A DNA stretch of 64,000 nucleotides, taken from assembly GCF_018531425.1 (NCBI RefSeq), contig NZ_JAHBOI010000004.1, positions 124,001-188,000 on the forward strand, read 5' to 3'. This document shows positions 23,676 to 40,298 of the stretch, in pieces. The position numbers and the translations under genes were made by a program. Within the stretch, counting starts at the first letter, position 1. The number at the start of each line of letters is the position of its first letter. This stretch comes from Paenarthrobacter sp. DKR-5. Lineage in GTDB: Bacteria; Actinomycetota; Actinomycetes; Actinomycetales; Micrococcaceae. Below the pieces are notes generated by a model. It did not search any database. It was not told where the DNA came from and was given only the letters and a program-made list of their open reading frames with translations.

Positions 23676-24299
23676 CTAGGACTCTTTCGGGAAACGACTG
23701 ATTCCGCGCCAAGCTAAACGATAGATCAGCTCACTGGCCACATCGATGTCCAGGACCCCGCCCGTTTCCAGCCAGTACCGGGCGCTGACGTGGGCCATCC
23801 CCGCCAGCGCACGCCCCAGCAGATTGGCCTCCAGCGGCGGCAGCTTGGTGTCTTCGGCGATCACCTTCCCGATGGCCTCGGCGTAGGTCGCGTTGTACGC
23901 CTCAAGGCGCGCGCTGACTTCCGGGTCGTTCGTGAGGTCGGATTCAAAGACCAGCCGGTAGGCCTGGTCGTCCTCGGCGATGAACTGGAAGTACGCCTTC
24001 ATCGTGGCGTGCACGCGCTGCTTGTTGTCCGTCGTGGAGTTCAGGGCGCCGAGCATCAGCTCGGTCAGCGCCGCGAGGTGGCTGTCGAGCAGGGCCAGAT
24101 AGAGTTCGCGCTTGCTGGGGAAGTGCTGGTACAGCACCGGCTTGCTGACCTTCGCCGTTTCGGCGATCTCGTCCATGGCGGCGCCGTGGTAGCCATTGGC
24201 GACGAAGACCTCCTGGGCGGCCGTCAGCAGCTGGGCGCGGCGCTCCTCCCGGGGCAGGCGGGCAGGCCGGCCGTGGGTGCGGCGCGGTTCTTGACTCAC
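23676..24299 (-). CDS. TetR/AcrR-family transcriptional regulator
   Basis: A 207-residue regulator. The N-terminal helix-turn-helix is classic TetR: RREERRAQLLTAAQEVFVANGYHGAAMDEIAETAKVSKPVLYQHFPSKRELYLALL. The C-terminal helical domain would bind an unknown ligand. The start is GTG at 24299. It is divergent from moeZ across 93 bp containing the perfect palindrome TTACCGGCCGGTAA (24342-24355), a likely operator for autoregulation and possibly for moeZ. It corresponds in position to Rv3208 near moeB1/moeZ. Confidence 0.9.
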   Translation of the reverse strand: MSQEPRRTHGRPARLPREERRAQLLTAAQEVFVANGYHGAAMDEIAETAKVSKPVLYQHFPSKRELYLALLDSHLAALTELMLGALNSTTDNKQRVHATMKAYFQFIAEDDQAYRLVFESDLTNDPEVSARLEAYNATYAEAIGKVIAEDTKLPPLEANLLGRALAGMAHVSARYWLETGGVLDIDVASELIYRLAWRGISRFPKES

Positions 24300-28877: not shown

Positions 28878-30215
28878 TCAGGCGCCGCCGGCAGCGCGGC
28901 GAAGCTCCTCATGGTCAACGGGGCAGGCAGCGGGAGAGGCGTCAGCGGGCTCGTCGAGGGAGATTCCGTAGAGCGCTTCAAGGGCAGCGACGTAACTGTC
29001 CTGCTCGCCTCGGGCTGCGAGTTCGCGGGCCCGGACGGTCGGGATGTGTAGCAGCTGCTTGACCATCCGGCGCAGCGCAAACTCCACTTCTTCGGCCGCC
29101 GCTGTGCAACCGTGCTGGGCGCGCACACGTTCAAGCTCGGTGTCCAGTACGTCGAGCGTGTGCCGGCGCAACGCCACGATGGCGGAATCCACCGAACGTG
29201 CCTGGCGCTGCTGTTCGAAATCCTTCGCGGAGCGGGCCACAATGCGGCTGGCGTGAGTGAGTGATTCCGACTGCTCCTGAGGGGCGGCCAGGCGCACGGA
29301 CTCCAAGGTGAGCAGTTCCACGCCGTCGAGCTGGGCCACCGCGGGGTCGAAGTCACGGGTGAGGGCAAGGTCGATGATGATGAGCGTCCCGGTGGATCCG
29401 GCCCGCACGCGCTCGACCTCGGCCGCGTCGAGGCGGGCATCCGAGCCGCTGCAGCCGATGACGACGTCGGCGGCGGCGAGCGCCCCCGGGAGCTCCTCGG
29501 CGGTCAGTGCGGTGCCGCCACGGGTGGCGACAAAAGCTTCGGCACGGCCCGACGACGAGTACACGCTGATGTCGGTGCAGCCGCGTTCGCGCAACTGGGC
29601 CATGGTGGCACCCGCGTACGCGCCGGTACCGAAAATCACGGCTTTACGGCCGGCCCAGTGCTTCGCCGGCCAGGTTGACTCGGTGAGGTCCGAGGCGAGG
29701 TCAAGCGCGACGGACACGATCGAAAGGCCGCGGCTGCCGAGCGCCGTCTGGGCCCCGACTTCCTTCGCAGTCTTCGAGGCTGCCTGGAACAACTGCACCA
29801 GGCCCGCGCTGGCCGTCCCCGATTCCTGGGCGCCGATCAGGGCGCGCCGGACCTGGCCGGCAATCTCACGTTCGCCGACGACGGCGGAATCCAGGCCGGC
29901 GCTGACGGCGAAAAGATGTTGGCCGACTTCTTCCCCGGTCCGGGTGAGGAAGGACTTCGAGACAAGGGGCTCGTCCAGGCCGCTCCGGCCGGCGATCTCG
30001 GCGATCAGGGCCGAGCGGGCGGCTTCAAGGTCGTTTTCGGAGGGAGCCTCGGCGTAGATCTCATAGCGGTTGCAGGTCGCCAGGACGACTGCGCCCTTCA
30101 CCGCCGACCCGTCGGCGAGTACGGACGGAGCGACCTCGGAGGCACCGGCACTCAGGCGGGCAACCGTCTCCAGGTCAACGTCGGCATGCGTAGCTACAAG
30201 AGAGAAAAGGACCAC
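28878..30215 (-). CDS. hemA: Glutamyl-tRNA reductase
   Basis: A 445-residue GluTR that reduces glutamyl-tRNA(Glu) to glutamate-1-semialdehyde, the committed step of the C5 haem pathway. The catalytic Cys48 lies in [24 protein letters not shown]-type residues ([14 protein letters not shown]) and the NADPH fold ([21 protein letters not shown]) are present. The C-terminal dimerisation helix carries [14 protein letters not shown]. The start is GTG at 30215; a TAGTAT hexamer (minus strand 30230-30225) ends 9 nt upstream, so the leader is very short or absent. It is divergent from the remaining haem genes. Confidence 0.94.
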
Positions 30216-30352
30216 AATGCATCCATACTAGCGATTTCGGCGCGCGGTAGAACAGGAAGTGCCGCCTAAGCTCTGGTGATCCTGATTACTTCATGCTCAT
30301 AATGACAGATTGTCATTATCCAATCCGGACCTTGTTCGGCAGAATCGATCCC
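30216..30352. promoter_or_regulatory. hemA-hemE divergent promoter region
   Basis: This 137-bp region carries candidate -10 hexamers for hemA (TAGTAT, minus strand 30230-30225) and hemE (CAGAAT at 30340-30345, 7 nt before the ATG). A perfect 9-3-9 palindrome lies between them and overlaps the predicted hemE -35 zone. Confidence 0.5.
30299..30319. promoter_or_regulatory. Perfect 9-3-9 palindrome, candidate haem/iron operator
   Basis: ATAATGACA (30299-30307) and TGTCATTAT (30311-30319) are exact reverse complements separated by GAT. It is an AT-rich island in GC-rich DNA and sits 33 bp upstream of the hemE ATG. The half-site ATAATGA resembles the arms of Fur-family boxes (GATAATGAT...). Which regulator binds is inferred. 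Confidence 0.7.
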
Positions 30353-31414
30353 ATGACACTGAGCGCATCGCACCCGCTGCTGGACGGCCGCACCACGGAT
30401 TCACCGCTGATTTCCGCCTACCGGTCGCAGAAGCCGGCGCGCCGTCCGGTCTGGTTCATGCGGCAGGCCGGCCGCTCGCTCCCCGAATACCGCGAGGCGC
30501 GCAAGGGAGTGGCGATGCTGGACTCCTGCCTGCGCCCGGACCTGGCGGCGGAGATTACCCTGCAGCCGGTGCGGCGGCACGACGTCGACGCGGCCATCTT
30601 TTTCTCGGACATCGTGATTCCGCTCAAGCTTGCCGGAGTCGGCGTGGACATCGTCCCCGGCGTCGGCCCGGTGCTGGAGAGCCCGGTGCGCACCGCGGCG
30701 GATGTCGCGCGGCTGCCGCGGCTCACGGAGGAAGCCCTCGAACCGATCCGCGAAGCGGTGCGACTGACTGTCGCCGAGCTGGGCTCGACGCCGCTGATCG
30801 GGTTCGCCGGCGCCCCGTTCACGCTCGCCGCCTACATGGTCGAGGGCCGGCCGTCCCGCGACCACTTGGGCCCGCGGACGATGATGCACGCGGATCCTGA
30901 CGCCTGGCGTGCCCTGAGTGAATGGGCCGCCGACGCGTCGGGCCTGTTCCTGAAGGCCCAGTTGGAGGCCGGGGCGAGCGCCGGTCAGCTCTTTGACTCC
31001 TGGGCCGGTTCGCTCGGCCTGCGCGACTACACCACCCACGTGGCCGCCGCCTCGGCCCGGTCTCTGGACCATGTGCGCGGCCTCGGTGCGCCCCTGGTTC
31101 ACTTCGGCACCGGCACTTCCGAACTGCTCGTGGCCATGCGCGATGTCGGCGTCGACGTCGTTGGCGTGGACTACCGGCTTCCACTCGACGAGGCAAACCG
31201 CCGGCTGGGCGGAACTGTCGCCCTGCAGGGCAACATTGATCCGGCGCTGCTCGCGGCGCCCTGGCCGGTGCTGGAGGCCCATGTCCGCGAGGTCCTTGCG
31301 GCGGGGCAGTCGGCGCCCGGGCACGTGGTGAACCTGGGGCACGGGGTGCCCCCGGAGACCGACCCGGATGTGCTGACCGCCGTCGTCAAGCTGGTTCATT
31401 CGGTGGCTCCCTGA
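30353..31414 (+). CDS. hemE: Uroporphyrinogen decarboxylase
   Basis: A 353-residue enzyme that removes four carboxyl groups to yield coproporphyrinogen III. Signatures: RRPVWFMRQAGRSLPEYRE (N-terminal UroD motif with substrate Arg residues), AAIFFSDIVIPLKLAGVGVDI, GFAGAPFTLAAYMVEG (second motif), and VVNLGHGVPPETDPD (His near the C-terminus). The ATG at 30353 is used; an in-frame ATG 60 bp upstream would put the palindrome inside the gene. It starts the long plus-strand haem operon, and its stop overlaps the cgoX start (TGATG). Confidence 0.93.
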   Translation: MTLSASHPLLDGRTTDSPLISAYRSQKPARRPVWFMRQAGRSLPEYREARKGVAMLDSCLRPDLAAEITLQPVRRHDVDAAIFFSDIVIPLKLAGVGVDIVPGVGPVLESPVRTAADVARLPRLTEEALEPIREAVRLTVAELGSTPLIGFAGAPFTLAAYMVEGRPSRDHLGPRTMMHADPDAWRALSEWAADASGLFLKAQLEAGASAGQLFDSWAGSLGLRDYTTHVAAASARSLDHVRGLGAPLVHFGTGTSELLVAMRDVGVDVVGVDYRLPLDEANRRLGGTVALQGNIDPALLAAPWPVLEAHVREVLAAGQSAPGHVVNLGHGVPPETDPDVLTAVVKLVHSVAP

Positions 31415-32850
31415 TGCGCAGCCCCGCGGGACCGGGCCGCCGGGGCAGGCCCGGGAAGCGCACAGCCATCGTTGTTGGCGGCGGCGTGGCCGGCCTGGTG
31501 GCCGCGCGGGACCTGGCGGCAGCGGGCCGGGAAGTGACCCTGGTGGAGGCCACGCACCGGCTCGGCGGCATGGTGGGCCGCCACGAAGTCGCAGGGCTGA
31601 CGCTGGACAGCGGAGCGGAATCCTTCGCCACGCGGTCCCCGGCGGTGTCGGAGCTGGCGGCGGAACTGGGCCTGGCAGACGCGATCGTCGCACCGGATCC
31701 GTCCGGGGCGTGGGTGCAGCTGCCGTGGGGCGCCGAACAGCTGCCCAAGACCGGCGTGCTGGGCATCCCGGCGGATGTCTGGGCTCCGGAAGTGCGGCGC
31801 ACCTTGGGGGTGGCTGGCGCGCTGCGCGCCTCCCTCGACCGTTACCTCCCCGCCGGTTTCGGCCCCCGGGGCGATGTCGCCAGCGTCGCCGCGCTCGTCC
31901 GGGCGCGGATGGGCAAGCGGGTGCTGAAGCGGCTGGTCGAGCCCGTGGTGGGCGGAGTGCACTCGGCGGATCCCGCGATGCTCGACGTCGACATGGTGGC
32001 GCCGGGCCTGCGTGCCGGTGTGGCCACCCACGGTTCCCTGGCAGGGGCAGTCGCCGCGCAGCGCCGGGCAGCGAAGGCTGGTTCCGCCGTTGCGGGAATC
32101 GCCGGCGGGATGAACCGCCTCGTCGCCGCGCTGGAGGCGGACCTGCGCTCCCGGGGCGTGACGGTCCTGACGGGCCGGAGCGCGGACCGGCTGACCCGTG
32201 TGGACGGGCGCTGGCTGGTGGGCGCCGGTCCCTGGACGGGTGAGGCGGACGAGTTGGTGGTCGCCATCGACGGCCCCGCGGCCGCGGATCTGCTCGGCGA
32301 CGCCGTGCCCGGCCTCGGAGAACTCGCACCGGCTCCCGGGCCCGACGTCAGCCTGGTGACGCTGGTGGTTGACATGCCCGAACTCGACCACGCGCCCCGC
32401 GGCACCGGAATTCTCGTCGCGCCGCAGGTGGACGGGGTCACCGCCAAGGCGCTCACCCACGCGACCGCGAAATGGGGTTGGCTGGCGGACGCCGCCGGGC
32501 CGGGGACGCACGTTCTTCGGCTTTCCTACGGCCGCGCCGGCGACGACCTGTCAGGCTACTCCGATTCGGACCTGTTCGATGCCGCCCTCGCCGATGCAAC
32601 GACCCTGCTCGGCACCGGGGTGACTCCCGCCGACGTGCTCGGCTGGGACGTGGTGGCGTGGCCCGGGGCGCTGCCGTTCGCCGCCGTCGGGCACAAGCAG
32701 CGGGTGGCTCGCGTCCGGGCGCTCGTGGCCGCCCATCCCGGCCTGGCGATGGCCGGCGGATGGCTGGCTGGAAACGGCCTGGTGGCGGTGGTGGCTGATG
32801 CCCGGCGACAGGTGCGGACGCTGCTCGGCGGCGAGGCGCCGACTTTATAA
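31414..32850 (+). CDS. cgoX: Coproporphyrinogen III oxidase (HemY-type, CgoX)
   Basis: A 478-residue FAD flavoprotein. The N-terminus has TAIVVGGGVAGLVAARDLAAAGREVTLVEATHRLGGMVGRHEVAGLTLDSGAESFATR (dinucleotide fold and GG doublet of the protoporphyrinogen-oxidase family), and the C-terminus has GLAMAGGWLAGNGLVAVVADAR. In actinobacteria, HemY-type enzymes oxidise coproporphyrinogen III to coproporphyrin III. The presence of chdC and cpfC in this cluster supports this and the name cgoX over protoporphyrinogen oxidase (hemY/hemG). It overlaps hemE by 1 bp. Confidence 0.92.
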   Translation: MRSPAGPGRRGRPGKRTAIVVGGGVAGLVAARDLAAAGREVTLVEATHRLGGMVGRHEVAGLTLDSGAESFATRSPAVSELAAELGLADAIVAPDPSGAWVQLPWGAEQLPKTGVLGIPADVWAPEVRRTLGVAGALRASLDRYLPAGFGPRGDVASVAALVRARMGKRVLKRLVEPVVGGVHSADPAMLDVDMVAPGLRAGVATHGSLAGAVAAQRRAAKAGSAVAGIAGGMNRLVAALEADLRSRGVTVLTGRSADRLTRVDGRWLVGAGPWTGEADELVVAIDGPAAADLLGDAVPGLGELAPAPGPDVSLVTLVVDMPELDHAPRGTGILVAPQVDGVTAKALTHATAKWGWLADAAGPGTHVLRLSYGRAGDDLSGYSDSDLFDAALADATTLLGTGVTPADVLGWDVVAWPGALPFAAVGHKQRVARVRALVAAHPGLAMAGGWLAGNGLVAVVADARRQVRTLLGGEAPTL

Positions 32851-32867
32851 AACCGTTACTTTTCGCC

Positions 32868-32873
32868 TAGGCT
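32868..32873 (+). promoter_or_regulatory. Candidate -10 (TAGGCT) for the CAP-domain gene
   Basis: TAGGCT ends 8 nt before the ATG at 32882 and 2 nt before an ATG at 32876. It suggests a separate, possibly leaderless, transcript for the CAP protein inside the haem cluster. Confidence 0.4.
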
Positions 32874-32881
32874 GGATGACC

Positions 32882-33997
32882 ATGGTTGATCAAGAGCCCA
32901 GGAATGTTCGTGCCCGGACCGGATCCCAAGCCCCCGTTTTCCGTCGTGTTTCCGCTGTCGCTGCCGGTGCCGCCCTGGCTTTCGGAGCCGGGCTGCCCGC
33001 CGCTTCGGCGGCCGATTCAGGCGGCCTCAGCGGCGCCGCCCAGATCTCGGTCCTTCCCGCCCAGGGCGACCCGGATTCGTTCGATGAGACCCTGCTGTCC
33101 CTGGTGAACGACTACCGCAGCCGCCAGGGCCTCCGGCCGCTGACCTGGCATGCGGGCCTGGCCTCCACCGCGCAAAGCTGGTCCTCCACGATGGCCGCGA
33201 GCCGCACCCTCTCGGAGCGGCCGGACCTCGACACGCAGCTGGCGGGGGCCTGGTCGGACCTGGCCGAGAACATCGCGCTGGATGACACCGCGGAGGAAAC
33301 CTTCGCTGACTGGACGGCGTCCCCGTCGTACCGCGCGAACCTGCTGAACCCGTCGTTCACCTCTGTCGGAATCGGCCACGCACCGTCCGCGTCGGGCCAA
33401 TACGTCACCGAGGACTTCGGAGCATCGGCGGAGGCATCGCCGGCCACAAGCGCTCCCGCGCCTGCTCCGACTCCGACACCGACTGCGGCGCCCGGCTCGC
33501 CCTCCCCGGCGCCCGTGCCGACGGCGACGCAGCCAGCGGCGGCGCCGTCCCGGAAGCCGGCGGTCCAGGGCAGCGCGGGCACCACTGCGGCACCGAAGCC
33601 CTCCGCCGGTTTAGCCTCGACCGGTGGCTCCGCACCCGGCGCCCCGGCAACCACAGACCCGTCCAGTGCCGGCTCACCGCAGCGTCCGGCCACCGGCGCA
33701 ACGCCCCCGCAGCCGTCCTCGGCTGCGGCCGTCCCTTCCCCGACGCCGTCGTCGTCCTCACCAAGCGCAACGGCGTCGGCCGCCCCGTGGACGTCCGGGT
33801 CCGGCCCGGCAGCGCTGAATGGCTCGGCGGTCCCCGGGCACCGGCCGACGCCGGGCTTCGTCGCCGACCTGTCCCGCTTCGGCAGCATCCCCAACACGGT
33901 GCTGCTGGGAATCGGGCTGCTGGGAGTTGCGGGGGCTTCGTTCGCAGCCTGGGGCATGCTGCGGCGCAAGGCCGCCGAACAGCGGATGCTGCTGTGA
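32882..33997 (+). CDS. Secreted/anchored CAP-domain (SCP-like) protein
   Basis: A 371-residue exported protein. An N-terminal signal peptide (Arg-rich, then VSAVAAGAALAFGAGLPAASAADSGG) is followed by a CAP domain (about residues 65-180): LLSLVNDYRSRQGLRPLTWHAGLASTAQSWS, LAENIALDDTAEETFADW (conserved Glu-Asn), and NPSFTSVGIGHA. About 150 residues of Pro/Ala/Ser/Thr follow, probably wall-spanning. A C-terminal membrane helix (TVLLGIGLLGVAGASFAAWGML) with a short basic tail closes it. It is not a haem enzyme. It has its own -10-like hexamer and two hairpins after it, so it looks like a separate unit inside the haem operon. Confidence 0.8.
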   Translation: MVDQEPRNVRARTGSQAPVFRRVSAVAAGAALAFGAGLPAASAADSGGLSGAAQISVLPAQGDPDSFDETLLSLVNDYRSRQGLRPLTWHAGLASTAQSWSSTMAASRTLSERPDLDTQLAGAWSDLAENIALDDTAEETFADWTASPSYRANLLNPSFTSVGIGHAPSASGQYVTEDFGASAEASPATSAPAPAPTPTPTAAPGSPSPAPVPTATQPAAAPSRKPAVQGSAGTTAAPKPSAGLASTGGSAPGAPATTDPSSAGSPQRPATGATPPQPSSAAAVPSPTPSSSSPSATASAAPWTSGSGPAALNGSAVPGHRPTPGFVADLSRFGSIPNTVLLGIGLLGVAGASFAAWGMLRRKAAEQRMLL

Positions 33998-34006
33998 GAT
34001 TGGCCA

Positions 34007-34031
34007 CTTCTACGTGCTGTAGAAGGATTTT
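34007..34031 (+). terminator. Terminator hairpin after the CAP-domain gene
   Basis: CTTCTAC (34007-34013) pairs with GTAGAAG (34019-34025) around a 5-nt loop and is followed by GATTTT. A second hairpin, GGCCGG/CCGGCC (34035-34040 and 34047-34052), follows with GTTT after it. Confidence 0.6.
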
Positions 34032-34078
34032 CGGGGCCGGGGGCCTCCGGCCGTTTCGACTTAGGGCGCGCCAAGGGG

Positions 34079-34084
34079 CAGACT
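34079..34084 (+). promoter_or_regulatory. Candidate leaderless -10 (CAGACT) for chdC
   Basis: CAGACT fits xAnnnT and ends 6 nt before the chdC ATG at 34091. With the terminator just upstream, chdC-hemL probably has its own promoter. Confidence 0.4.
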
Positions 34085-34090
34085 GTAACC

Positions 34091-34792
34091 ATGAGCCACA
34101 CTTCTGCGGAATCTGTCACTAAAACCGCGTCGCAAGCACAGGCCTTCACGCTGTGGACCGTGTTCAAGCGCGACGCCGACGCCTCAGCCCCCGACGCCTC
34201 AGCTGCTGCCGCTTTCGACGAGCTGGCAGCCGGCTTTGCGGAGCAGAACATCACGCTCCGCGGCGCCTACGACGTCTCGGCCATGCGCGCCGACGCCGAC
34301 GTCATGATGTGGCTCGTAGGTCCGTCGGCGGAAGGCCTCCAGGCAGCGGTGCGCCACATCCGCCGCAGCGCCCTGTTCACGGGAACCTCGATCGCCTGGT
34401 CGGCCATGGGCGTGCACCGCGAGGCCGAGTTCGCCAAGGACCACTCGCCGTCCTACTACCGGGGCGTGGCTCCGAAGGGCTGGGTCTGCGTGTACCCGTT
34501 CGTGCGCTCCTACGAGTGGTATGTGCTGCCCCCGGAGGAGCGCGGCAGGATGCTGCGCCACCACGGCCTGCTGGGCCGCGACTTCCCGCAGGTGCTCTCG
34601 AACACCGTTTCCTCGTTTGCCCTTGGCGACTGGGAGTGGATCCTGGGCCTGGAGTCCGACGACGTCGTCGACCTCGTGGACCTGATGCGCCACCTGCGCG
34701 CCACGGATGCCCGGATGCACGTGCGCGAGGAGATCCCGTTCTACACCGGCCGTCGCATCGAGGCCGCGGAGATCGCCGAGGTACTGGCGTGA
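34091..34792 (+). CDS. chdC: Coproheme decarboxylase (HemQ/ChdC)
   Basis: A 233-residue chlorite-dismutase-family protein that converts coproheme to haem b by peroxide-dependent oxidative decarboxylation of two propionates, the last step of the coproporphyrin-dependent route. Signatures: FTLWTVFKRD, YYRGVAPKGWVCVYPFVRSYEWYVLPPEERGRMLRHHGLLGRDFP (Tyr for radical chemistry and the proximal His in RHHG), SSFALGDWEWILGLESD, and LRATDARMHVREEIPFYTG. The ATG at 34091 fits the leaderless pattern. Its stop overlaps the cpfC start by 4 bp (GTGA). Confidence 0.94.
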   Translation: MSHTSAESVTKTASQAQAFTLWTVFKRDADASAPDASAAAAFDELAAGFAEQNITLRGAYDVSAMRADADVMMWLVGPSAEGLQAAVRHIRRSALFTGTSIAWSAMGVHREAEFAKDHSPSYYRGVAPKGWVCVYPFVRSYEWYVLPPEERGRMLRHHGLLGRDFPQVLSNTVSSFALGDWEWILGLESDDVVDLVDLMRHLRATDARMHVREEIPFYTGRRIEAAEIAEVLA

Positions 34793-36024
34793 GCGCGCCC
34801 TCCGGGACCGGCGAAGCGTCCACCGCTGTGAATCCGCAGACCGAGAAGGGCCGGATGGAGCCCAAGCCCTATGACGCCGTCCTGCTGGCCTCCTTCGGCG
34901 GCCCGGAAGGCCAGGACGACGTCATCCCCTTCCTGCGCAATGTCACCCGCGGCCGCGGCATCCCCGACGAACGGCTTGAGGAGGTTTCGCACCACTACCG
35001 TGCCTTCGGCGGCATCAGCCCCATCAACGCCCAGAACCGGGCCCTCAAGGCAGCTTTGGAAGCCGAACTGGAACGCCGCGGCATTGACCTGCCGGTACTC
35101 TGGGGCAACCGGAACTGGGACCCGTACATCCCGCAGGTGCTGCAGGATGCCTACGACGCCGGCCACCGCCGCCTGCTCACGATCACCACGAGCGCCTATT
35201 CCTGCTACTCGAGCTGCCGCCAGTACCGCGAGGATCTCGGCATGGCGCTGACCGAGACCGGTCTGGACGGCAAGCTGGAAGTGGACAAGGTCCGCCAGTA
35301 CTTCGACCACCCCGGTTTTGTGGAGCCCTTCGTCGAAGGCACCGCGAAGGGGCTGGCCGACGTGCGCGCCCAGCTGGCCGCTGCCGGAACCCCGGATGCG
35401 CCGCTGCACATCCTCTTCAGCACCCACTCCATCCCGATGAAGGACGCGCATGCCTCCGGGAATTCCCCGGAGGAACCGCGCGAGTTCGAAGAGCACAGCG
35501 CTTATGTTGCCCAGCACCTTGCCGGCGCCCGCGCCATTATCGAACGTGTCGCCCCCGGAACCGAGTGGTCCCTGGTCTACCAGTCCCGTTCCGGGGCCCC
35601 GCATGTGCCGTGGCTGGAGCCGGACATCAACGACGCGCTCGAAGAACTTGCGGGCAAGGGCGTCAAGGGTGCGGTGATCGTGCCGCTGGGCTTCGTGAGC
35701 GACCACATGGAGGTCGCCTGGGACCTGGACACCGAGGCGCTGGAGACCTGCCGCGAGCTGGGGATTGCCGCGACCCGCGTGCCGACGCCCGGGGTGCACG
35801 AGAAGTTCGTGGCCGGCATGGTCGACCTGATCCTCGAACGCACCGTAGTGCCCGGCCGGCCCGAACTGACCGTCGCCGACCGGCCGGCGATGACCCGCCT
35901 CGGGCCCTGGTACGACGTTTGCCGTCCCGGCTGCTGCGCCAACCAGCGCGGCGAAAAGCCGACCATCGCCGGGGCCGACACCCGCATCGGCACCGGCTTT
36001 GAACCGGCGGGCACTGCTTCATGA
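34789..36024 (+). CDS. cpfC: Coproporphyrin ferrochelatase
   Basis: A 411-residue ferrochelatase that inserts Fe2+ into coproporphyrin III. Motifs: YDAVLLASFGGPEGQDDVIPFLRNV at the N-terminus, LFSTHSIPM (catalytic His), and VPLGFVSDHMEVAWDLDTEA (metal-entry His/Glu). The C-terminal VCRPGCCANQRG, together with CYSSCRQY mid-protein, offers Cys ligands for the [2Fe-2S] cluster found in actinobacterial ferrochelatases. The GTG at 34789 overlaps the chdC stop; an ATG at 34855 (MEPKPYDA) is a credible alternative start. Confidence 0.93.
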   Translation: MSAPSGTGEASTAVNPQTEKGRMEPKPYDAVLLASFGGPEGQDDVIPFLRNVTRGRGIPDERLEEVSHHYRAFGGISPINAQNRALKAALEAELERRGIDLPVLWGNRNWDPYIPQVLQDAYDAGHRRLLTITTSAYSCYSSCRQYREDLGMALTETGLDGKLEVDKVRQYFDHPGFVEPFVEGTAKGLADVRAQLAAAGTPDAPLHILFSTHSIPMKDAHASGNSPEEPREFEEHSAYVAQHLAGARAIIERVAPGTEWSLVYQSRSGAPHVPWLEPDINDALEELAGKGVKGAVIVPLGFVSDHMEVAWDLDTEALETCRELGIAATRVPTPGVHEKFVAGMVDLILERTVVPGRPELTVADRPAMTRLGPWYDVCRPGCCANQRGEKPTIAGADTRIGTGFEPAGTAS

Positions 36025-36998
36025 TCAGCGCCCGGATCGGAACCAGGGCCAGCGCGCTGGCCCTGACCCAGACCCAGCAGACCGCGGACCGGCTGGCAGC
36101 CGTCGGCGGGTTCAGCGTGGACCTGGTGCATGTGCGCACCGAGGGCGACGTGAACAAAGCGTCGCTCGCACAGATCGGTGGGACCGGCGTGTTCGTTGCT
36201 GCGCTGCGGGAGGCCCTGCTCGAGAACCGCTGCGACGTGGCGGTGCATTCGCTCAAGGACCTGCCGACCGGGGCCGCGCCGGGACTGACCATTGCATCCG
36301 TTCCGGCCCGTGCCGACGTCCGGGACGCGCTGTGCGCCCGGGACGGACTGCCCCTGTCCGGGCTGCCGGCTGGCGCCAAGGTGGGCACCGGGTCGCCGCG
36401 CCGCGCGGCCCAGCTGCGCGCCGTGCGGCCTGACCTGGAGATTGTGGACATCCGCGGCAACGTCGACACCCGGCTGGGACGGGTCGCCGGGCTCGTCGAG
36501 GGCGGCCGGGGCGACCTGGACGCCGTCGTGCTGGCCGCTGCCGGCCTGACCCGGCTGGGCAGGCTCGGCGCCGTGACCGAGTTCTTCGAACCGTCCGTGA
36601 TGCTCCCGGCCCCGGGCCAAGGTGCCCTGGCGATCGAATGCCGCTCCGACGACGCCCCGCGGAAGGCCGGATCCACCACCGGGTCCCAAGGGGCGCTCGC
36701 GCAGGCGCTGGCCGCCATCGAGGACCCCGGAGCGCGCCATGAAGTCACCGCCGAGCGGGCCCTGCTGGCACGTCTCGAAGCCGGCTGCACCGCCCCGATC
36801 GGAGCCCTGGCATCCTTCACCGGGGAAGCCCTGAGCCTGGATGCCGTGGTGTGTTCGGACGACGGAACCCGGATCCTGCGCCGGTCCCGGCGGACCGAGG
36901 TGCTGACCGAAGTCGGAGCCACGCTCCTGGGCATCGAACTCGCCGAAGAACTGCTGGCCGACGGCGCCGCCGAACTGGCGGACCTGGCGGGACACTGA
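36021..36998 (+). CDS. hemC: Hydroxymethylbilane synthase (porphobilinogen deaminase)
   Basis: A 325-residue enzyme that polymerises four porphobilinogens into hydroxymethylbilane. RIGTRASALALTQTQQTADRL opens the protein. DVAVHSLKDLPT (catalytic Asp region), VGTGSPRRAAQLRAVRPDLEIVDIRGNVDTRLGR (substrate Arg residues) and LPAPGQGALAIECR follow. The dipyrromethane cofactor Cys lies in EAGCTAPIGALA at about residue 256. It overlaps cpfC by 4 bp (ATGA). Confidence 0.95.
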   Translation: MISARIGTRASALALTQTQQTADRLAAVGGFSVDLVHVRTEGDVNKASLAQIGGTGVFVAALREALLENRCDVAVHSLKDLPTGAAPGLTIASVPARADVRDALCARDGLPLSGLPAGAKVGTGSPRRAAQLRAVRPDLEIVDIRGNVDTRLGRVAGLVEGGRGDLDAVVLAAAGLTRLGRLGAVTEFFEPSVMLPAPGQGALAIECRSDDAPRKAGSTTGSQGALAQALAAIEDPGARHEVTAERALLARLEAGCTAPIGALASFTGEALSLDAVVCSDDGTRILRRSRRTEVLTEVGATLLGIELAEELLADGAAELADLAGH

Positions 36999-37000
36999 CG

Positions 37001-37891
37001 GTGGCCCAAGCGGCGACACTGGCCGGCCGGAGAGTCGTCATCACGCGCAGCCCGGAGCGGGCGGCGGTGCTGGCGGACGCCGTGGCCGACGCCGGCGGGC
37101 GGCCGCTGCTGATGCCGCTGATCGACTTCGAAACCGCACCCGAGCCGGCACTGCTGGACCGGGCCCTCCGTTCCCTGGCCGGCGGCGCCTACCGCTGGCT
37201 CGTGGTCAGCAGCGCCACCACTGTCCTGGCCTTGCGGCGCGCCGCCGAGGCCCGCGGGATGCCGCTGGCGTCCGTGGTCCCGGGCACCGTGCGGATCGCC
37301 GCCGTCGGGGCCGCCACCCGCCGTGCGCTCGAGGCCCAGGGGCTCAAGGTCGACCTCGTGCCGGCGGAGCCCCAGTCCGCGGCCGGGCTGCTCTCGGTCT
37401 GGCCCGCCGGGGCTGGCACGGTGCTCCTGCCGCAGGCCGACATCGCGGCCCCCCTGCTGCGCGACGGGCTGGTTGGCACCGGCGCCGACGTGACCGCCGT
37501 AGCGGCCTACCAGACCGTGAACTTCCCGGCGCGGCCGGAGCACAGGCTCAGTGACGCCGCGGAAGAGAGCGGGTCCGGCGGCGGGCGCCCGCTGCACACA
37601 CCGGCGGAGGTCCGCGCGCTGCTCGACGACGCCGTACCCTCCGCCGTCGTCGCAGCATCAGCCAGCGCCGCCCGCAGGATCGTCTCGTTGCTCGGCCCGC
37701 TGCCGGCCTCGGCCCGGTTCGTGGCCATCGGAGCCGCGACCGCCGCAGAGGCAGCACGCCTGGGCCAGCCGGTCGCCGCCGTCGCCCCCGCACCGACGCC
37801 GGAAGGCGTCCTGTCCGCACTTGCGGAGGCCTTCGGACCCTCCGCCCCGCCGAACCAACCATCCGCCTCGACAGCGAAGGAAACACTGTGA
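37001..37891 (+). CDS. hemD: Uroporphyrinogen-III synthase
   Basis: A 296-residue two-domain enzyme that cyclises hydroxymethylbilane with inversion of ring D. The family is weakly conserved. Recognisable parts are [36 protein letters not shown] at the N-terminus, [64 protein letters not shown], and [35 protein letters not shown]. The GTG at 37001 is 2 nt after the hemC stop. A gene in this position between hemC and hemB is expected to be hemD. Confidence 0.9.
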
Positions 37892-38865
37892 GCTTCCCGC
37901 ACCACCGCCCCCGCCGGCTCCGCACCACGCCCGCCATGCGCCGGCTGACCGCCGAATACCGCCTCGATCCGGCCGAGCTGATCCTGCCCGCCTTCATCCG
38001 CGAAGGCCTCACCGAGCCGTCCCCCATCACCTCCATGCCCGGCGTCGTGCAGCACAACACCGACTCACTCAAGCGCGCCGCGGCCGAAGCCGTCCGGCTC
38101 GGGGTGGGCGGCATCATGCTTTTCGGCGTGCCGGAAACCCGCGACGCCGCCGGCAGCGCCTCCCTGGACCCGGTCGGAGTGCTGAACCAGGCGATCCGCG
38201 ACGTGCGCGCGGAAGTGGGCGATGACCTGGTGGTGATGAGCGACGTCTGCCTGGACGAGTTCACCGACCACGGGCACTGCGGCGTGCTCGCCGCCGACGG
38301 CACGGTCGACAACGACGCCACGCTGGAAATCTACGGCCGGATGGCGGTGGCCCAGGCTGAGGCAGGGGCCCACGTGCTGGGGCCGTCCGGCATGATGGAC
38401 GGACAGGTCGCGGTGATCCGCCAGGCTCTTGACGACGCCGGCCACCAAGGCACCTCCATCGTCGCCTACGCCGCCAAGTACGCCTCCGCCTTCTACGGAC
38501 CGTTCCGCGAAGCCGTCGATTCCCAGCTGCAGGGGGACCGGCGGACCTACCAGATGGATCCCGCCAACCGGCGCGAAGCGATGCTGGAAGTCGAGCTGGA
38601 CCTCGAGGAAGGCGCGGACATGATCATGGTCAAGCCGGCCATGAGCTACCTCGACATCCTCGCCGACGTCGCCGCCGCCTCCCCGGTACCCGTCGCCGCC
38701 TACCAGATCTCCGGCGAATACGCGATGATCGAAGCAGCGGCTGCCAACGGCTGGATCGACCGCCGCCGCTCGATCGAGGAATCCGTCCTCAGCATCAAGC
38801 GGGCCGGCGCCAACATGATCCTGACCTACTGGGCTTCCGAGCTCGCCGGCTGGCTGCGGGCCTGA
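37888..38865 (+). CDS. hemB: Delta-aminolevulinic acid dehydratase (porphobilinogen synthase)
   Basis: A 325-residue TIM-barrel enzyme that condenses two 5-aminolevulinates. The two active-site lysines lie in [16 protein letters not shown] and in [15 protein letters not shown] (Lys249). The metal-site loop reads [14 protein letters not shown]: the first and third zinc cysteines of the E. coli enzyme are present, but the second is Asp, a mixed Zn/Mg-type site I believe is common in actinobacteria. The GTG at 37888 overlaps the hemD stop by 4 bp. Confidence 0.95.
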
Positions 38866-38910
38866 TCCAGGGCCCCGGCCGCCGCTTACTTTCCGAAAGG
38901 TGAACCCTTC

Positions 38911-40230
38911 ATGACCTCCTCCCTGGACCTGTTCGAGCGGGCGCGCCGGCTGATGCCCGGCGGTGTGAACTCTCCGGTGCGCGCGTTCGGCTCCGTCGGC
39001 GGCACGCCGCGCTTCATGGTGTCCGCGAACGGCCCCTACCTGCACGACGCCGACGGCAACGAGTATGTGGACCTGGTCTGCTCCTGGGGGCCGGCCCTGC
39101 TCGGCCACGCCCACCCGGACGTGCTGGCCGCTGTCCACGCGGCCGTCGACCGCGGCCTCTCCTTCGGCGCTTCGACCCCTGCCGAAGCGGAACTGGCCGA
39201 GCTGGTGCTGGGACGGGTGGCTGCCGTCGAGCGCTTGCGCATGGTCTCCACCGGCACCGAAGCGACGATGACGGCGGTCCGCCTCGCCCGCGGCTTCACC
39301 GGCCGCAACCTGGTGATCAAGTTCGCCGGCTGCTACCACGGGCACCTGGACGGCCTGCTGGCCTCTGCCGGTTCCGGCGTCGCCACGCTCGCCCTGCCCG
39401 GCTCTGCCGGCGTCACCGAGGCCACCGCGGCCGAGACGCTGGTGCTGCCGTACAACGACCTGGAGGCCGTGCGCGAGGCGTTCGCCGCCCACGGCAGCAA
39501 CATCGCTGCCGTCATCACCGAGGCGGCGCCGGCCAACATGGGCGTCGTCACGCCGGGGGAGGGCTTCAACGCCGGACTGGCCGAGATCACCGCCGCGCAC
39601 GGGGCGCTGCTGATCCTGGACGAGGTGCTCACCGGCTTCCGTACCGGCCCCGGCGGCTTCTGGGGCCTGACGTCCCCGCTGGAGGGCCACTGGCGCCCTG
39701 ACCTGTTCACCTTCGGAAAGGTCATCGGCGGCGGCATGCCTGTTGCTGCGCTCGGTGGCCGCGCGGACGTAATGGACTACCTCGCGCCGCTGGGGCCGGT
39801 GTACCAGGCCGGCACGCTCTCCGGCAACCCGATCGCGATGGCGGCAGGCGTCGCGACGCTCAAGGCTGCCACCACCGAGGTGTACGAGACCGTGGACGCG
39901 CGTTCGCTCGAGCTGTCCTCCGCCCTCTCCGCCGCACTCACCGCAGCGGGAGTGGACCACTCGGTGCAGAGGGCCGGGAACCTCTTCAGCGTCGCGTTCG
40001 GCACCTCCGCGAACGGCGTGCACAACTACGCCGACGCCCAGGCGCAGGAAGCGTTCCGTTATGCGCCGTTCTTCCACTCGATGCTCAACGCAGGGGTCTA
40101 TCTGCCGCCGTCGGTGTTCGAGGCGTGGTTCCTCTCCGCTGCGCACGACGACAAGGCCATGGAGCGCATCCTGGCCGCGCTGCCGGGGGCGGCGCAGGCC
40201 GCGGCCGCCGCGAAGCCCGCCGAAGCGTAA
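38911..40230 (+). CDS. hemL: Glutamate-1-semialdehyde 2,1-aminomutase
   Basis: A 439-residue PLP enzyme that converts glutamate-1-semialdehyde to 5-aminolevulinate, acting right after HemA. Features: [46 protein letters not shown], and [11 protein letters not shown] (PLP-binding Asp). The PLP Lys270 lies in [28 protein letters not shown] is also present. The 45-bp gap after hemB contains an AAAGGTGA ribosome-binding stretch. It is the last gene of the haem operon and is followed by a strong terminator. Confidence 0.95.
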
Positions 40231-40254: not shown

Positions 40255-40298
40255 AAAAAGCCCGCCGGACCGCATGCGGTCCGGCGGGCTCTTCGCTT
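40255..40298. terminator. Bidirectional intrinsic terminator after hemL
   Basis: A perfect 30-nt palindrome (40260-40289; arms GCCCGCCGGACCG / CGGTCCGGCGGGC, loop CATG after fraying) is flanked by AAAAA on the left and TCTTCGCTT on the right. It lies between the convergent hemL and glnQ-like genes and can serve both. Confidence 0.88.

Follow-up and report, generated by a model that had tools for sequence, protein, structure and literature searches.

The palindrome upstream of hemE in the DNA of Paenarthrobacter sp. DKR-5 analyzed here (a stretch of 64,000 nucleotides, hereafter the window) is very probably a functional operator of this gene. Its core is conserved at a fixed distance from the predicted hemE promoter in several genera of the Micrococcaceae, and identical sequences mark haem and haemoprotein genes in relatives. 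As the best explanation of these sequence data, we think it rather probable that the site is the operator at which a dimeric regulator acts on the hemE operon and that it represents a haem regulon box of the Micrococcaceae, a TetR protein being the most likely binder. The features discussed are listed in table 1.

The Palindrome and the hemE Promoter

The 9-3-9 inverted repeat reported in the earlier note reads exactly as described there. The genome-wide search that the note called for found it in a single copy: allowing up to three mismatches, there is no second match in the window or in the 3.78-Mb genome. The intergenic region has no match in plasmids, and the exact box string did not occur in the literature searched. 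In the window, we counted 28 perfect inverted repeats with arms of at least 9 and spacers of 0–10 (nested ones counted), and first-order simulations yielded 0–4 inverted repeats of the 9-3-9 type per 64 kb. Among the 28, the repeat between hemA and hemE is the only AT-rich one, in DNA of 70% GC, and none of eight simulations produced an AT-rich inverted repeat. Rarity by itself was nevertheless dropped as an argument. Because inverted repeats of this size arise by chance in 64 kb, the case for function rests on conservation.

The palindrome is not central between the two genes, as had been supposed, since the hemE start is 44 nt away and the hemA start 94 nt. Its predicted overlap with the hemE −35 is borne out: the first four bases of the putative hexamer are covered, and the TTAT of the right arm is part of the −35. 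For the most part, the outer arms (ATAA/TTAT) are private to the window's genome. Relatives share a common hemE promoter, with a weak −35 close to TTATC, a spacer of about 18 bp, and a −10 of the form [CG]A[CG]AAT. As this −10 usually lies only 6–7 nt before the start codon, the hemE mRNA is probably leaderless. An upstream in-frame start of hemE across the palindrome was ruled out, as the phase to the ATG shifts by single bases and the left arm varies. A role as RNA hairpin or terminator was discarded as well, both predicted transcription starts being located outside the palindrome and running away from it.

According to Pfam, the gene run from hemE to hemL contains no regulator gene. The CAP-domain (SCP-like) gene located between hemY and chdC (window positions 32798–33997) encodes a secreted protein. 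Directly after hemL, a GC-rich perfect inverted repeat (window positions 40261–40288) probably serves as the terminator of these genes.

Table 1. Features of the hemA–hemE Region and of the Candidate Regulator Gene (Window Positions Unless Stated Otherwise)
Feature	Position	Strand	Remarks
hemA, glutamyl-tRNA reductase	28878..30215	−	Start GTG 30215; Pfam GlutR domains
Putative hemA promoter TTCTAC-N16-TAGTAT	30225..30252	−	Conserved in relatives
CRP/Rex-like element GGTGATCCTGATTACT, assigned to hemA	30275..30290		Homologous TGTGA-N6-yCAC phase-locked to hemA in g10
Palindrome ATAATGACA-GAT-TGTCATTAT, proposed operator	30299..30319		Read directly; unique in genome
Conserved core GAC-N5-GTC	30304..30314		Centre 30309, 44 nt upstream of hemE start
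Putative hemE −35 TTATCC	30316..30321	+	18-bp spacer; overlapped by right arm; TTATC/TTAAC kept in relatives with and without box
Putative hemE −10 CAGAAT	30340..30345	+	[CG]A[CG]AAT conserved 6–7 nt before start codon
hemE, uroporphyrinogen decarboxylase	30353..31414	+	ATG 30353; homology over 353 residues; start context conserved
hemY, CAP-domain gene, chdC, hemH, hemC, hemD, hemB, hemL	31414..40230	+	Pfam
Candidate tetR	G000 contig C11; L339 17341–17991	−	Protein begins MPRI[ST]A

Conservation of the Box at hemE

The hemE upstream regions compared comprise 80 loci identified by HemE homology, one genome per genus, and pattern matches in 295 genomes of the family. Named loci of identical sequence served to infer the genus names of the g-numbered genomes, and one genome represents the genus of the window. 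The core GAC-N5-GTC is found 30–31 nt before the hemE −10 in seven genera: the window's lineage, g10 (Arthrobacter/Pseudarthrobacter), g26, g7 (Sinomonas), g19, Kocuria, and Rothia. At two fixed offsets, it would be expected by chance in about 1 of 2000 genomes. The box was also recovered at loci picked by HemE homology alone, independently of the pattern. Among 32 distinct g10 sequences, part of them selected by pattern, GACA and TGTC are invariant and the centre and left flank are variable. Seven genomes contain the combination of palindrome, fixed gap, and −10; six of them have a single copy and the seventh has two. Conservation in close relatives, whose lack the earlier note would have counted against itself, is therefore found in these seven genera and not in many others, the box at hemE being absent from about two dozen genera.

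Separate Elements for hemE and hemA

The earlier note saw in the palindrome a single site steering both hemA and hemE. Wherever measured, the centre of the box lies 42–46 nt, usually 44 nt, from the hemE start, whereas its distance to the hemA start drifts from 69 to 161 nt. Conversely, in g10 the hemA start and TGTGA-N6-yCAC are separated by 77.5–79.5 nt (67.5 nt in the window), and the distance of this element to hemE in g10 varies from 70 to 127 nt. Because the spacing to hemE is fixed, the spacing to hemA varies, and hemA has an element of its own, we assign the palindrome to the hemE operon. On this sequence comparison, the two genes have separate, independent elements, and the palindrome is not a two-way switch.

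Rex is a redox regulator that controls hemACD in Streptomyces. The TGTGA-N6-yCAC element on the hemA side recalls a Rex site, but it differs from the palindrome in sequence and is located on the opposite side of the intergenic region. The window's genome has a Rex gene. Rex was set aside as binder of the box, since it (PF06971) has no match in G002 and G005, although the box is present in these g3 and g6 genomes.

Other sequences were observed on the hemA side. An IdeR/DtxR-like TWAGG-N4-CCTWW is located upstream of the hemA promoter at seven loci (L005, L022, L025, L124, L125, L127, and L135), from which the palindrome is absent. The window has only half of such a sequence, TTAGGC, on the minus strand near positions 30264–30269. 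The TTCTAC hexamer is conserved in hemA promoters; L018 carries TTCTAC-N5-GTAGAA dyads, and the FasR operator contains GTTCTACG.

Perfect Boxes Elsewhere Mark Haem and Haemoprotein Genes

Perfect TGACA-N3-TGTCA boxes are few but overrepresented: 18 genomes (g3, g6, and g26) contain 45 of them, about a dozen being intragenic or unexplained, versus 6 for the reversed pattern. According to Pfam, the genes beside perfect boxes in the Rothia-, Kocuria-, and g26/Glutamicibacter-like genomes are ctaC-ctaD (Kocuria- and Rothia-like genomes), hmuO/htaA, hemE/hemA, sdhC, cydA, furA-katA, and lpdA. Two of the haem oxygenase/HtaA sites consist of two boxes, 25–26 bp apart. Of the 12 ctaC and sdhC loci measured, 11 have the centre of the box 28 nt before the −10, and the remaining one has it 29 nt before. 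At furA, the box covers the start codon of the FUR-family gene, which is followed by a catalase gene. At the Rothia-like loci L248 and L261, a gene for a conserved protein carries a promoter box beside an IdeR-like box. The L248 protein has no Pfam match, and the gene is possibly a new iron or haem gene.

Since relatives carry identical boxes at haem and haemoprotein genes, the signal read at the box is probably linked to haem, either haem itself or a porphyrin. The hemE site of the window is likely a member of this haem regulon. It would be the local copy of a box marking genes for haem synthesis, haem oxygenase and uptake, cytochrome oxidases, succinate dehydrogenase, and catalase. The window's genome contains a single perfect TGACA-N3-TGTCA box, and no box was found at its sdhC and katA promoters in the stretches read (about 1.6 Mb), so that the regulon of this species may consist of hemE alone.

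We propose that a dimeric DNA-binding protein would occupy GAC-N5-GTC about 44 bp upstream of the putatively leaderless hemE start and thereby control the genes from hemE to hemL. Bound at about −44 against a weak −35, the dimer would either contact RNA polymerase, in a class II-like activation of the weak −35, or block it by steric repression. We lean slightly toward activation at hemE, ctaC, and sdhC, because the spacing is narrow and target-specific and the −35 is weak. For furA, conversely, repression is suggested, since the box covers the start codon.

Alternative Readings of the Palindrome

Could the conserved block be an extended core promoter or an alternative sigma-factor site, with an incidental symmetry and no separate protein? 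The g10 block does continue into the −35 (GTCGTTATCTTTT), chance alone provides palindromes of this size, and many genera keep the hemE −35 and −10 without the box. This reading is nevertheless very unlikely. Kocuria shows paired substitutions in the two arms (GACG...CGTC), the bases at the centre are free to vary, in g19 another box is present at hemE 14 bp upstream of the first, and elsewhere perfect boxes cluster at haem genes. Still less credence is due to the proposal of the earlier note that a Fur-family protein binds the palindrome and controls hemA and hemE jointly in response to iron, haem, or peroxide. Haem genes as targets and the box at the start codon of the FUR-family gene accompanying katA in Rothia-like genomes speak for it. 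Yet the arms do not resemble Fur-family half-sites: the core, GAC-N5-GTC or TGACA-N3-TGTCA in full, differs from the boxes of Fur, PerR, Zur, and DtxR, conservation does not extend to the AT-rich outer arms, and there is no 7-1-7 AT-rich repeat such as TGATAATNATTATCA, typical of Fur, PerR, and Zur. The variable distance to hemA, with its own element, also argues against joint control. What is retained of that interpretation is a conserved regulatory site over the hemE −35 and a likely link of its signal to haem. Similarly, the box shares with DtxR/IdeR sites an association with iron and haem genes, and IdeR-like boxes are found close to it at the Rothia-like loci L164 and L248 and near hemA in several relatives, but the palindrome does not match the iron box of the TTAGGTTAGSCTAACCTAA type.

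The window itself encodes (positions 23676–24299, minus strand) a TetR protein orthologous to FasR of Mycobacterium tuberculosis, with the same VSKPVLYQHF helix. Its gene is close to the hem genes in the window, and the Kocuria counterpart directly follows hemA. That this FasR-like protein binds the box is nonetheless highly improbable: M. tuberculosis FasR was crystallised on TACCCGTACGTAGAACTCGCCAGTA (PMC7382501), an operator without such a box, and no orthologue was found among the TetR proteins of the box-bearing Rothia-like genome (G002). The same low probability applies to a response regulator of the NarL type, such as HrrA or ChrA. HrrA of Corynebacterium glutamicum targets hemE, hemA, hmuO, hta genes, cta, sdhCD, cydA, and katA (PMC7337898, PMC12327846). 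The target list of the box is nearly the same, since in the Rothia-, Kocuria-, and g26-like relatives it also marks haem synthesis, hmuO, cta, sdh, cyd, and catalase genes. However, the HrrA operator CMAMCDAAAGKTKGA does not match TGACA-N3-TGTCA, and HrrA is a two-component response regulator for which we found no NarL counterpart common to the genome of the window and that of the Rothia-like relative. In the former, a DevR/DosR-like protein (L207) was the sole stand-alone regulator of the NarL type found, and it is without counterpart among the two of the latter. Its gene (G000 C1:656078) is accompanied by that of a GAF-type sensor kinase and adjoins a universal stress protein gene.

A Candidate TetR Regulator

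A comparison of TetR proteins between Rothia- and Kocuria-like genomes yielded one strong orthologue pair, with 60% identity, and an orthologue is present in the window's genome. The helix-turn-helix is almost identical across the orthologues, with the recognition helix [VI]GRTAVYNY[FY]ADM, and residues H107, H129, and H163 are invariant. No NCBIfam equivalog matched the protein above its cut-off, and it has no close PDB entry, HrtR not being among the matches. All four tetR promoters carry TGAC-N15-GTC around the −10, that is, the half-sites of the box one helical turn further apart than in the operator. The Kocuria promoter has in addition a complete TGACAGAACGTCA and that of G117 GACAACCGGTC, and the protein probably regulates its own gene. 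In G117, tetR is located 0.75 kb from hmuO, which has two perfect boxes. Like a TetR-family operator, the box is an inverted repeat overlapping its target promoter.

HrtR of Lactococcus lactis is a TetR haem sensor that controls the haem efflux genes hrtBA, and its operator ATGACACAGTGTCAT presumably contains the same TGACA-N3-TGTCA box. The recognition helix of HrtR (RGSFYQYFED, PDB 3vok) is similar to that of the candidate (RTAVYNYFAD) in that both are devoid of the usual FPSK. No HrtR orthologue was found, and the TetR proteins surveyed match HrtR weakly.

The candidate was chosen from partial surveys of the TetR and NarL families, and we propose tentatively that it may bind the hemE box. 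It is also possible, if somewhat doubtful, that the operator and the regulon are right and that the binder is another regulator conserved in the family, for example of the XRE, MarR, or LysR type. Only TetR and NarL proteins were covered by the survey, and a T-N11-A or TGAC-N5-GTCA geometry also suits LysR- or XRE-type proteins. Against such a binder stand the half-sites that the TetR candidate has in its own promoter and its position beside hmuO in one genome. BldD, whose consensus TnAC-N5-GTnA requires the outer T and A, was rejected or at least down-weighted, as these two bases vary at the hemE genes of g10 while the G is invariant.

Proposed Haem Regulation in the Micrococcaceae

A 2024 review names C. 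glutamicum and Corynebacterium diphtheriae as the Actinomycetota in which regulation of the haem pathway is known (PMC10991733). Compared with the two-component systems HrrSA and ChrSA of corynebacteria, the control proposed here for the Micrococcaceae would be of the one-component type. We put forward, as a conjecture, that in this family a single TetR-type regulator acts through TGACA-N3-TGTCA to place the synthesis and breakdown of haem, respiration, and catalase under one haem-related signal, the window carrying the hemE operator. If this is true, a large family of environmental and oral bacteria would have a defined operator, together with a list of its targets and a candidate protein identified by name, and the regulation of actinobacterial haem synthesis beyond Corynebacterium would become directly testable.
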